Source: Methylophilus methylotrophus DSM 46235 = ATCC 53528 (GTDB lineage: Bacteria > Pseudomonadota > Gammaproteobacteria > Burkholderiales > Methylophilaceae). From it: a stretch of 64,000 nucleotides of DNA. The notes under the pieces are model-generated. The model saw nothing but the letters and a program-made list of their open reading frames with translations. It searched no databases and was not told where the DNA came from. Of the stretch, positions 47,521 through 51,224 are shown piece by piece (the first letter of the stretch is position 1; each line of letters starts with the position of its first letter). The DNA lies in the NCBI RefSeq assembly GCF_000378225.1, contig NZ_KB905145.1:1-64000 (forward strand). The letters run 5' to 3'. A program made the position numbers and the translations under genes.

Positions 47521-47751
47521 ATGAAAATAGAATTCAAAAAATCAGAACCGCACGCCAACCTGGATGTTGTCACGATCAATGAAGCCATCGTCGGTGAGTT
47601 TATTACCGACGTGAGTAATCAATCCTTTCTGTTTGTGCCTGCCAAAGGTGACCGCATACTGCTTTCCCGCGTGACTTACGATGAGGCATGCAAACTGTTG
47701 CGTGATGAACTCTCGCAGCTGTATGCGCATCGTTGCGCGATAGCCGCTTAA
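47521..47751 (+). CDS. conserved small protein of unknown function
   Basis: A 76-residue protein starting MKIEFKKSEPHANLDVV. I use the ATG at 47521 because it begins the foldable part; an in-frame ATG at 47446 would add 25 residues read through the leader hairpin. The sequence looks like a small beta-rich domain (GEFITDVSNQSFLFVPAKGDRILLS) with a C-terminal helix. I do not recognise a family. Its last bases overlap the convergent UdgX-like gene by four bases. Confidence 0.55.
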   Translation: MKIEFKKSEPHANLDVVTINEAIVGEFITDVSNQSFLFVPAKGDRILLSRVTYDEACKLLRDELSQLYAHRCAIAA

Positions 47752-49232
47752 CCTTTTTCAAGCGCCAGCTGCGTGGCCGCTTTTGCGGCCAGGGCCAGGT
47801 CTTTCACCAGCTGTTCGTAACGCAACTGTTTTGTTGCCTGATCTCGTATGCTCAAGATCACTGCAGGCTGAATGGTTACTACTAGCTGCCGACCACCCGG
47901 CAGCGGTAATAGCTTGCTACCATGCGCAGCTATCTCCATCCCCTTGCCGTAAAGCGCACGCGCCGCAATCGGACCGAAAGCGACGATCACTGATGGTTGC
48001 ACAATCTCAATCTCGGCCCGCAACCAGGGCAAATAGGTCTGGATATCCCTATCATCAAGCGCTAAAGGGATGCGTCGCCTCCCCTGTAGCTTGAATTTAT
48101 AGTGTTTAAGCAGATTAGTAGCGTAAACATCAGACCGCCCTATTCCTGCCGCATTGAGGGCTTGATCAAGCAATGTGCCAGCCTGGCCGGTAAAGGGCTG
48201 GCCAGCCAGGTCATCTTGCTCTTGCGGTTGTTCGCCTAGCAACAGGACGGTGGCGGGTGCAACCCCCTGGCCCAATACCGCTTGCGTGGCATGCACTGCG
48301 AGCGGAAAGTCTGCTGAGGACAGCATCGTGTCGTTGAGTTCACGCAATGCCTTTATCACCCCTCCTGCGTCTGCAGGCAGTCGTCTGCTCTCCTCTTTCG
48401 CAACATATTTCACGATTTTGCGCTGAGGTTCAGTGGGCTTTGCAACGATCATGCCATGCATGCGTGGCGACGAATCTGCAATCAACTTGGCAATCAGTGG
48501 CGCTTCGGGCAGGTTGCGCCAGTATTTTTTGGGCATTTGCGCCAGCATGGCCGGGACTTTAAGCCGCGCCGGGTTGAAAATGCTACGGTAATAAGACCGC
48601 CATAATTCTTCACCGGCATCCTGGGCCGGTGCATCGGCCTTGCTGGCACCCGTGGTGTAATTCAGCCTGTGGCCATCCCAGTGCATGCAGATTTCCGGCG
48701 TGAGGATGGACCAGCGCATATTGGTAAAACGCCCGGTGAAAAAGGGTGCGGAGGCTTCCACAATATGATGGCTGGGCTCAAACCAGGCAACAAACTCGGA
48801 TTCGCCATTTTCCATCTCAATCTCTCTAAAGCGCACGAATGCCTTCATTTTGTGCAGATCGCGACGGACGGCTTTGACCATGGCTTGCGCCTTTGCCACA
48901 TCAGGATCCACTGACAGCTGTAGCAGTTTAGGTTGCGCTTTCAAACGCCATAGCAGGCGGTAAAGCAAGGCAAAACGCGATGGATCCCTATGCAGGATGA
49001 CCTGGCGGCAAAGCTCGATAAACTCGCGTGGGACTTTGAATTGATGGGTTGGACGTTGATTCACCCGCTGGCTTGGTGCCATCTCATCTTCCGGCAAATC
49101 AAATAAGCCATGTGTTTGCTGTCCGACACGCCACTGGATATGCTCAGGCGCGATCTCTTGCAAAAGTAAGGCGCGGGCGGCATTGCGCCAACCTTCAATA
49201 TCAGTTTCACTGGTCAGGCGGACGGTCTGCAT
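47748..49232 (-). CDS. DUF4130-UdgX-like fusion with degenerate glycosylase site
   Basis: A 494-residue fusion. Residues 1-245 match the TIGR03915/DUF4130 'DNA metabolism' domain (FKVPREFIELCRQVILHRDP, RWSILTPEICMHWDG). Residues 290-485 match the UdgX uracil-DNA glycosylase family: LLLGEQPQEQDDLAGQPFTG and ATNLLKHYKF. Hallmarks are lost: the covalent-adduct His of KRRIH is Pro (GRRRIP, 385-389), the HPS motif reads QPA (455-457), and the cysteines for the iron-sulphur cluster are absent. It lies 32 bp downstream of the radical SAM gene, its usual partner. Confidence 0.82.
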   Translation of the reverse strand: MQTVRLTSETDIEGWRNAARALLLQEIAPEHIQWRVGQQTHGLFDLPEDEMAPSQRVNQRPTHQFKVPREFIELCRQVILHRDPSRFALLYRLLWRLKAQPKLLQLSVDPDVAKAQAMVKAVRRDLHKMKAFVRFREIEMENGESEFVAWFEPSHHIVEASAPFFTGRFTNMRWSILTPEICMHWDGHRLNYTTGASKADAPAQDAGEELWRSYYRSIFNPARLKVPAMLAQMPKKYWRNLPEAPLIAKLIADSSPRMHGMIVAKPTEPQRKIVKYVAKEESRRLPADAGGVIKALRELNDTMLSSADFPLAVHATQAVLGQGVAPATVLLLGEQPQEQDDLAGQPFTGQAGTLLDQALNAAGIGRSDVYATNLLKHYKFKLQGRRRIPLALDDRDIQTYLPWLRAEIEIVQPSVIVAFGPIAARALYGKGMEIAAHGSKLLPLPGGRQLVVTIQPAVILSIRDQATKQLRYEQLVKDLALAAKAATQLALEKG

Positions 49233-49264: not shown

Positions 49265-50494
49265 TTAAAACAGGCCAAACTGTTGCACTGGCACAGGCTG
49301 CTGCAGGCGTTGTTTCAGATGGTTATCGTCTAGGCTGCGCCCGGGATGGTAATCGGGCAGCACGACGAACGGTAACACTTTTTTCAGAGACAGTCGCAGG
49401 CGCGTCAGGTCATCATAACGTATGGCGCGTACTTTGCGCGCAGCTAAAATGCGCGCGACGCTGGTGACACCCAGCCCGGGCACCCGCAACAGCATGGCTT
49501 TAGGTGCGCGGTTGAGATCCACCGGAAACTGTTCGCGGTGTTGCAGCGCCCAGGCTGTCTTAGGGTCTACATCCAGGTCCAGCATGCCATCCTCACCGGT
49601 GATGATTTCTTCGGCATCAAAACCGTAAAAGCGCAACAGCCAGTCGGCCTGGTATAAACGGTGCTCGCGCACCAGCGGCGGTGCCTTGAGCGGCAACATT
49701 TTGCTGGCATCGGGAATCGGACTAAAGGCAGAATAATAGACACGACGCAAACGGTAAGCGCCATACAAGTGAGCGCTGGTATCCAGGATAGCTCGGTCAT
49801 CCGTGCTATCCGCCCCGACAATCATCTGCGTGCTCTGGCCGCCAGGAGAAAACCGTGGTGGCCGTTTGCCAGTCAGTGTCTTCTCCTTGCTTTCTTCTAT
49901 CTTGAGTCGTAATTGCCCCATGGAACGGCGGATAGCCTTGCCATCCTTTTCTGGCGCCAGCGTATGCAGACTGGCAATGGTTGGCAGTTCAACATTGATG
50001 CTTAGGCGGTCGGCATAAAGGCCAGCACGTGCCATCAGTTCTGCGCTGGCGTCGGGAATGGTCTTGAGATGAATGTAGCCACGGAAGTCGTGCACTTCTC
50101 GCAGTACGCGTGCCACTTCTACCACCTGCTCCATGGTGTAGTCCGGGTTGCGGATAATGCCTGAACTCAGGAATAGCCCTTCAATGTAATTGCGGCGATA
50201 GAAGCTCAACGTAAGATTGACCACCTCATCCACACTGAACCGCGCACGTGGCACATTGCTACTGACGCGGTTGACGCAATAGATACAGTCATACACGCAG
50301 AAATTAGTCAGCAATATTTTCAGCAGGGAAATACAGCGTCCGTCAGGGGCGTAGCTATGGCATATGCCCATACCCGTGGTAGAACCTATCCCCTTACCAT
50401 TGGCGGAAGTGCGTTTGTCTGTGCCGCTCGATGCGCATGAAGCATCGTATTTTGCGGCATCTGCCAGGATTTCGAGTTTTTGCTTGAGCTCCAT
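49265..50494 (-). CDS. putative DNA modification/repair radical SAM protein
   Basis: A 409-residue protein of the TIGR03916 type. I chose the ATG at 50494 (MELKQKLEILADAAKYDASC), the usual N-terminus; 14 earlier codons lie in the promoter region. The radical SAM cluster motif is CVYDCIYC (CxxxCxxC), with GGQST and other barrel segments following. A helix-hairpin-helix-like C-terminal part (LLRVPGLGVTSVARILAARKVRAI) suggests DNA binding. Such proteins are regularly paired with DUF4130/UdgX genes and are presumed to repair or modify DNA; the reaction is unknown. Confidence 0.87.
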   Translation of the reverse strand: MELKQKLEILADAAKYDASCASSGTDKRTSANGKGIGSTTGMGICHSYAPDGRCISLLKILLTNFCVYDCIYCVNRVSSNVPRARFSVDEVVNLTLSFYRRNYIEGLFLSSGIIRNPDYTMEQVVEVARVLREVHDFRGYIHLKTIPDASAELMARAGLYADRLSINVELPTIASLHTLAPEKDGKAIRRSMGQLRLKIEESKEKTLTGKRPPRFSPGGQSTQMIVGADSTDDRAILDTSAHLYGAYRLRRVYYSAFSPIPDASKMLPLKAPPLVREHRLYQADWLLRFYGFDAEEIITGEDGMLDLDVDPKTAWALQHREQFPVDLNRAPKAMLLRVPGLGVTSVARILAARKVRAIRYDDLTRLRLSLKKVLPFVVLPDYHPGRSLDDNHLKQRLQQPVPVQQFGLF

Positions 50495-50561
50495 GTGAGT
50501 GATCTGAACCAAACAGCTATAAAAAATTAAATTCAAAAAAATAATAGAAATCTTTATATTA

Positions 50562-50599
50562 TTTCTGTTACGATAATAACATTATTTTTGTTACAGAAA
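50562..50599. promoter_or_regulatory. paired palindromic operator before the S24 gene
   Basis: Two 15-bp near-palindromes of the form TTTCTGT-T-ACAGAAA: TTTCTGTTACGATAA at 50562-50576 and TTTTTGTTACAGAAA at 50585-50599, centres 23 bp apart. They share TGTTAC in the same phase and lie between the divergent radical SAM and S24 genes, the second ending five bases before the S24 start codon. They resemble autoregulatory sites of LexA/S24 proteins. Confidence 0.6.
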
Positions 50600-50603
50600 T
50601 AAA

Positions 50604-51224
50604 ATGAGCGAAGAAATAAAAAAAGACCGTATCCGGCAACCTGGTGGCGGGCGCAAATCCGGAACTGGATTGTACAAAGAAGACACTAGCGTGATCCGTG
50701 TGCCTAACAGCCAAAAACCTGTCATTACAAGTTTTCTGGAGGCCTATGCCAAGAAGCAGCGGCTCAGTGAGCTGAAAGACAACCTGGATAGTATCGAAGA
50801 GTTCACGCAGCTATCGGATGATCTGGAAAACCTGAGCTTGCCGCTGTTTGAATCAAAAGTACCAGCCGGCTTGCCCTCCCCCGCTGATGACCATGTTGAG
50901 TCACGCATGGACCCCAATGAATACCTGATCAATAAAGCCGACAAAACTTTTTTTGTCACCATTCAGGGCGAGTCCATGATTGAGGTTGGGCTGATGCCGG
51001 GTGATAAAGCGGTGGTCGAAAAAGACAAGGTGCCTGCCGTTGGCAATATTGTGCTGGCGATGATTGATGGTGAGTTTACTGTCAAAACCCTGGCCAAGCA
51101 AAAAGATGGTATGCCCAAATTGTTGCCCGCCAACTCCTCAGGAAGATATTCGCCCATCCTGATCTCAAAACAAATGCAGTTTGAAATTTGGGGCGTCGTT
51201 ACCGGTTCATTTAGAAAGTTTTAA
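50604..51224 (+). CDS. LexA/UmuD-like S24 self-cleaving protein with RHH-like N-terminus
   Basis: A 206-residue protein. The C-terminal S24 peptidase domain has a likely Ala-Gly self-cleavage site (KVPAGLPSP, about residue 88), the catalytic Ser in IQGESMIEVGLMPGD and the Lys in EFTVKTLA. The N-terminal 50 residues (GRKSGTGLYKEDTSVIRVPNSQKPVITSFL) look like a ribbon-helix-helix DNA-binding unit, unlike the winged helix of LexA. This suggests a damage-sensitive repressor acting on the adjoining operators, although a UmuD-type polymerase subunit is the alternative. It is divergent from the radical SAM/UdgX pair, which it may control. Confidence 0.82.
   Translation: MSEEIKKDRIRQPGGGRKSGTGLYKEDTSVIRVPNSQKPVITSFLEAYAKKQRLSELKDNLDSIEEFTQLSDDLENLSLPLFESKVPAGLPSPADDHVESRMDPNEYLINKADKTFFVTIQGESMIEVGLMPGDKAVVEKDKVPAVGNIVLAMIDGEFTVKTLAKQKDGMPKLLPANSSGRYSPILISKQMQFEIWGVVTGSFRKF

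Follow-up and report, generated by a model that had tools for sequence, protein, structure and literature searches.

An eroded UdgX domain fused to a conserved DUF4130 domain in Methylophilus methylotrophus

The fusion gene and its neighborhood

The window, i.e. the whole stretch of 64,000 nucleotides of Methylophilus methylotrophus DNA analyzed here, encodes a protein in which an N-terminal DUF4130 domain is followed by a linker and a C-terminal domain of the UdgX family (Table 1). In comparisons with the NCBIfam profiles this protein scored 226.8 bits against TIGR03915/DUF4130 (cut-off 112.25) and 191.1 bits against TIGR03914, the "UdgX family" profile, which is barely above the cut-off of 189.95; the Pfam profiles agree, recovering DUF4130 and the UDG superfamily. 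The product of the gene upstream of it matches the radical SAM profile TIGR03916 with 584.4 bits (cut-off 343.5), which bears out the DNA-repair radical SAM neighbor named in a preliminary description of this DNA; that gene more likely starts at an internal ATG near position 50494. A search of the entire genome (G000, 2.86 Mb) returned one match at E 0.001. One intact frame, together with a dN/dS below 1 (see below), rules out a pseudogene or frameshift affecting the gene as a whole. We also set aside an anti-phage system, as neither the fusion protein nor the radical SAM protein has a PADLOC match at E 0.01, and LexA-type CTGT-N8-ACAG boxes gave no signal in the window, with 18 one-mismatch matches against 20.4 expected.

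Table 1. Positions in the window of the fusion gene, its domains and motifs, and the adjacent radical SAM gene
Feature	Position	Strand	Basis or residue states
DUF4130-UdgX fusion gene, 494 aa	47748..49232	minus	single open frame, translation, family profiles
DUF4130 / TIGR03915 domain, residues 7-244	48501..49214	minus	26/26 near-invariant positions kept
UdgX / TIGR03914 region and linker, residues 246-481	47790..48497	minus	29/40 near-invariant positions kept, counted over 289-481
Cluster CxxC position, S306 and F309	48306..48317	minus	alignment of UdgX-type domains
Motif A GEQPQEQDD, residues 333-341	48210..48236	minus	E52, Q53, D59 equivalents kept; G55Q, D56E, E58D
R-loop RRRIP, residues 385-389	48066..48080	minus	R107 kept; cross-linking H109 replaced by Pro
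Third cluster cysteine position, Y400	48033..48035	minus	alignment of UdgX-type domains
Motif B QPAVILS, residues 455-461	47850..47870	minus	H178Q, S180A, R184S
Radical SAM gene TIGR03916, upstream of the fusion gene	49265..50536	minus	family profile

An AlphaFold2 model of the full protein has a mean pLDDT of 92.3 and a pTM of 0.58, the latter leaving the relative placement of the domains unsure. In this predicted model the UdgX half adopts the UDG superfamily fold and superimposes on the structures of Mycobacterium smegmatis UdgX (MsmUdgX) with target-normalized TM scores of 0.83-0.92 and Z of 27-28. Residues 317-484 of this half also match, with Z 16.1, a UDG-like domain within a family-A DNA polymerase from a phage (9qhs, whose title mentions a modified template), a case of a UdgX-like fold built into another DNA enzyme. 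The DUF4130 domain modeled alone has a pLDDT of 89.9 and no Foldseek match at E 0.001 among solved structures. A second structural comparison of its residues 1-204 gave matches mostly to DHH-type phosphoesterases (RecJ, PAP phosphatase and NrnA) with Z up to 7.3, a hint too weak for a DHH-type fold to be assigned.

Residues retained and replaced in the UdgX half

Residues of the UdgX half are numbered after MsmUdgX. According to the available portions of two studies of that enzyme, H109, activated by E52, forms the covalent bond, the uracil is held by N91 and H178, R184 and others contact the DNA, and D59 and R107 stabilize the fold (PMC10359453; PMC10776899). A comparison of equivalent positions in the window protein showed that: 1) Motif A has the GEQP form, and Q53 in it, along with R107 in the R-loop (RRRIP), marks the protein as one of the UdgX lineage. 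Family-4 UDGs (UdgA, TIGR00758), which share the superfamily fold, differ in these two features, and their profile scores 90.3 bits, below its cut-off of 125.3; the accessible text of PMC10359453 gives GE(A/G)PG and a 4Fe-4S cluster as characteristic of that family. 2) The equivalent of the cross-linking H109 is Pro389. 3) Motif B, HPS(S/A)(L/V)(L/V)R in UdgX, reads QPAVILS. 4) The cysteines of the 4Fe-4S cluster are replaced by S306, F309 and Y400. 5) E52, Q53, D59, F65, N91, K94 and R107 all remain, as do P54 and H95, so the preliminary description, while correct about GRRRIP, QPA and the cysteines, overstated the case in holding that all catalytic hallmarks had been lost.

Eleven of the 40 positions of the UdgX half that are near-invariant among fused proteins are changed, namely G55Q, D56E, E58D, P68Q, A92L, V93L, F96Y, H109P, H178Q, R184S and a proline three residues past H109 (L392). 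S180A falls on a less strict position, with alanine in 12 of 108 UdgX-type domains including that of the window. The fold core GEQPQEQDDLAGQPFTG, described earlier as kept, itself carries three of the changes at near-invariant positions (G55Q, D56E and E58D), with P68Q just after it. Among ten DNA-backbone contacts named in MsmUdgX, P68, H178, S180 and R184 are changed and A69 is kept. The window protein resembles MsmUdgX (TIGR03914) in its fold, in the R-loop insertion with R107, in motif A and in most residues of the uracil pocket, and differs from it in lacking the cluster cysteines, in H109P, H178Q, G55Q and R184S, and in being fused to DUF4130.

We placed these states in a census of 108 UdgX-type domains (75 fused to DUF4130 and 33 unfused), which is not a random sample and to which a contig-level genome search contributed 4 loci. 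Identical repeats of sequences already included (six in a rerun) were left out, as were L059, L148 and L157, which a motif/frame filter removed for a GEAPG in two and a broken frame in one; all three belong to the UdgX lineage and keep the R-loop histidine and HPS. In L059 and L148 this full set stands beside GEAPG, the form that motif A takes in family 4, i.e. a natural Q53A. Of the 108 domains, 103 were scored as having His-109 and 104 as having His-178, and for each of the three cluster columns cysteine was seen in 95. The 103 include L056, a misaligned row with a broken frame; two rows of the census, L078 and L080, are partial. Hence, the changes in the window protein are not ordinary variation.

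H109 is absent only from L001 (the window), L002, L003, L039 and L077, and among the 75 fused sequences only from three Methylophilus proteins and L039. Unlike the window protein, which otherwise has the domain order, the neighboring TIGR03916 gene and all the near-invariant DUF4130 positions of the other DUF4130-UdgX fusions, L039 has also lost DUF4130 positions (14 of 26); a more normal copy, L052, lies on another contig of its genome. L077 (G927) and L039 (G540), in which H109 is replaced by Gln and Pro respectively, are also the only domains with a histidine at N91, possibly a shifted histidine or a chance occurrence; a search of 67 genomes of its family (E 1e-28) for an L077-type N91H clade found one other relative, with N91 and H109. 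In another fused protein, L159, from a genome (G799) with four TIGR03914 matches, the UdgX domain has Y91 and N59, and the DUF4130 half departs strongly (13 of 26).

All three cysteines are missing in 12 domains of the census, four of them from the Methylophilaceae and eight from elsewhere in the phylum (L132, L135, L138, L141, L147, L150, L151 and L152), in which the third cysteine is Tyr or Thr. The eight share this loss with the window protein but, unlike it, keep R107, H109, H178 and R184 in otherwise complete motifs, and lie on separate branches. As these eight sequences with H109 and HPS lack them, the cysteines are not a reliable criterion for UdgX, and cluster loss need not accompany loss of the catalytic motifs. 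The cluster-less rows sit at three places of the UdgX tree; we do not claim several independent losses, as the AU test does not exclude a single origin (p 0.208). Titles and abstract openings of the open-licence papers listed contained neither a pseudo-UdgX nor a cluster-less UdgX, which may still be in print.

Relatives in the Methylophilaceae and the order of the losses

A search of 187 genomes of the family recovered the full fusion in three genomes of the same genus: that of the window, G067 (91% identical) and G068, strain Leaf416 (66% over the main stretch). In 17 of the 22 same-genus genomes there was no match at E 0.001, and in G077 the match is only to a family-4-type UDG with GEAPG. 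A fourth UdgX domain, not fused to DUF4130, is found in Novimethylophilus kurashikiensis (G177). These four domains, all without the cysteines, group together with support in a quick tree (SH-aLRT 99*), and within the group the R-loop and motif B change stepwise: Novimethylophilus has SARLH and HPS, Leaf416 GTRRVR and HPS, G067 GRRRIP and HPA, and the window GRRRIP and QPA. At positions 109 and 178 this gives living intermediates, from His109 in Novimethylophilus to Arg in Leaf416 and Pro in two species, with H178Q added last. Because the motif states differ stepwise across this set, the losses are nested, the cysteines having gone first, followed by H109, then by G55, P68, S180 and R184, and finally by H178. 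Among the four domains this last change, H178Q, occurs only in that of the window; the G067 ortholog has His (CAT versus CAG), so that the difference consists of one base of one assembly. The losses do fall in one clade, but were staged and not fixed as a package.

Another genome of the genus, G079 (430 contigs, 94% complete), encodes DUF4130 alone. Eight further loci from two other genera of the family (L005-L012) likewise encode DUF4130 without UdgX. In G067, Leaf416 and G079 the gene lies at the same place, with the radical SAM gene on one side and homologs of the 47446 ORF and a KefB-like gene on the other. The G079 ORF stops after the linker, with about 50 bases between its stop and that of the next gene, and downstream of it no tblastn match to UdgX better than E 0.2 was found past the linker. 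The DUF4130 tree places G079 within Methylophilus (84) and has the 12 Methylophilaceae rows together on the same side of a branch (94); both values are unstarred. As the linker is shared and fusions are prevalent, we infer that the UdgX domain was lost rather than gained. The UdgX domain is dispensable, since the same locus in a genome of the same genus is without it. A radical SAM gene is present in the flank of 76 of 89 DUF4130 loci (flanks mostly of 1.2-1.5 kb; one duplicate locus), all 12 of the Methylophilaceae included. At L005:766-2376 the C-terminal part of a radical SAM protein and DUF4130, without UdgX, occupy one uninterrupted frame, possibly a direct radical SAM-DUF4130 fusion.

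Constraint, expected chemistry and a possible role

All three Methylophilus proteins keep every one of the 26 near-invariant DUF4130 positions, whereas of the 40 UdgX positions the window protein keeps 29, that of G067 30 and that of Leaf416 36. The window protein's departures (0 of 26 and 11 of 40) compare with means of 0.56 (largest 16) for DUF4130 and 0.31 (largest 5) for UdgX in the 71 other fused proteins, from which the near-invariant positions were themselves picked as conserved. The ratio of uncorrected UdgX to DUF4130 distances is 2.00 between the window and Leaf416, against a median of 0.85 (5-95% 0.61-1.18) in 43 non-independent pairs with a DUF4130 divergence of 0.2-0.3; between the window and G067 it is 1.49, which alone is not unusual beside 13 close pairs with a divergence under 0.1 (median 0.83, 5-95% 0.56-2.16). 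Nei-Gojobori estimates of dN/dS between the window and G067 are 0.252 for the UdgX part (bootstrap 0.14-0.43), 0.164 for DUF4130 and 0.069 for the radical SAM gene, silent sites being saturated in the comparison against Leaf416. For the UdgX part, 5 amino-acid changes and 11 silent codon changes could be assigned to the window branch, and a further 14 could not be assigned. A relative divergence of about twofold combined with a dN/dS well under 1 shows that the UdgX half is under relaxed yet remaining constraint. The same figures bear on neutral decay, by which this half would be functionless and drifting towards deletion. Such decay would agree with the twofold divergence, with near-invariant positions being changed in UdgX and none in DUF4130, and with the absence of UdgX in place in G079 and in the eight related loci, but we consider it unlikely in view of the dN/dS, the balance of changes on the window branch, the lack of any stop or frameshift in three species and the retention of the D59-R107 pair and other core residues.

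The MsmUdgX mutants described in the available parts of the literature provide a guide to the expected activity. Alanine mutants of D59, F65, N91, K94 or R107 are inactive, and H178A is folded and inactive (PMC10776899), whereas H109A, S, G, Q, C and K do not cross-link and gain ordinary uracil excision, the lysine mutant hardly any (PMC10359453). Hence, the premise that each loss amounts to catalytic death fails for two of them: for H109, as these mutants show that its loss is not necessarily fatal to catalysis, and for the cysteines, as cluster-less homologs retain the other motifs. Further, the title of structure 6l6s describes MsmUdgX H109E as cross-linked to DNA, so that a residue other than histidine at 109 is no proof of lost cross-linking. 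By analogy with the mutants, cross-linking by the three Methylophilus proteins, with Pro or Arg at 109, is unlikely; uracil excision would be possible for the G067 protein, by inference poor for that of Leaf416 (Arg109, cf. the nearly inactive H109K), and improbable for the window protein. This genome also encodes a standard UNG as well as a deoxyinosine glycosylase, and the repair of uracil therefore does not have to rely on the fusion protein.

The gain of conventional activity by the H109A/S/G/C/Q mutants in the accessible text (PMC10359453) raises the alternative of a working uracil glycosylase with turnover, in which the loss of H109 turned cross-linking into hydrolysis. E52, F65, N91, K94 and R107 would be in place for it, and H178 is kept in G067 and Leaf416; for the window protein, with H178Q where the reported H178A mutant is inactive, and for Leaf416, with Arg109 where H109K is nearly inactive, it fits poorly, and as a general account we regard it as quite improbable.

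We consider it somewhat probable that the domain is a folded pseudo-UdgX, dead for cross-linking and probably for excision, under relaxed selection and dispensable, which is tethered to an intact DUF4130/radical-SAM pair. On this pseudo-UdgX reading, a conserved DUF4130 repair module, presumably the partner of the neighboring radical SAM protein, would carry at its C-terminus a domain that retains the predicted fold, the uracil-pocket residues (E52, F65, N91 and K94) and the fold-stabilizing D59-R107 pair. Cross-linking to DNA should have gone with H109P, and uracil excision most likely with H178Q on top of G55Q, P68Q and R184S. The losses came stepwise, the cluster cysteines going before H109, H109 before residues of motifs A and B, and H178 last, in this species alone, and the domain would at most help the pair to sit on DNA or to stay stable. 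Against it, Gln178 and Pro109 might behave unlike the mutants characterized in the available parts of the papers, the G067 and Leaf416 orthologs with H178 could still excise uracil, and a dN/dS well under 1 indicates that the domain still does something.

The preliminary description had offered a non-catalytic scaffold or a uracil/lesion sensor. A scaffold is compatible with the data, agreeing with the predicted fold, the dN/dS of 0.25 and the conserved DUF4130 and radical SAM partners, whereas the sensor is weakened. A dedicated sensor, binding uracil or lesions without cutting and recruiting the DUF4130/radical SAM pair, would draw on the kept pocket residues, on purifying selection and on the frequency of the radical SAM neighbor; we hold it to be very unlikely, as residues that contact DNA (P68, S180, H178 and R184) are among those changed, the losses are staged with no fixed set, relatives that retain DUF4130 and radical SAM lack the domain, and the UdgX half has diverged at about double the rate of the DUF4130 half. 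More broadly, it is conceivable, if rather doubtful, that in the pseudo-UdgX a suicide glycosylase has become a uracil-pocket or DNA-docking module that no longer catalyzes and that serves a DUF4130/radical-SAM repair enzyme, with staged intermediates in living relatives.

What the comparisons reveal is a real, unusual and clade-restricted erosion of a UdgX domain beside an untouched partner domain. This natural series, in which UdgX chemistry is lost with DUF4130 untouched, suggests that DUF4130 and radical SAM are the essential core and cross-linking is optional. The case also draws a line, in UdgX, between losing the cluster and losing catalysis.

An inverted repeat (50556-50605), its 24-base arms 83% complementary, lies between the radical SAM gene and a divergent S24/UmuD-like gene (50604-51224, plus strand). 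This stretch is absent upstream of the radical SAM gene in Leaf416 (L053) and G079 (L163) and present there in G067 (L162), where the S24 gene is also found; it is a possible candidate for an operator of the S24 protein.
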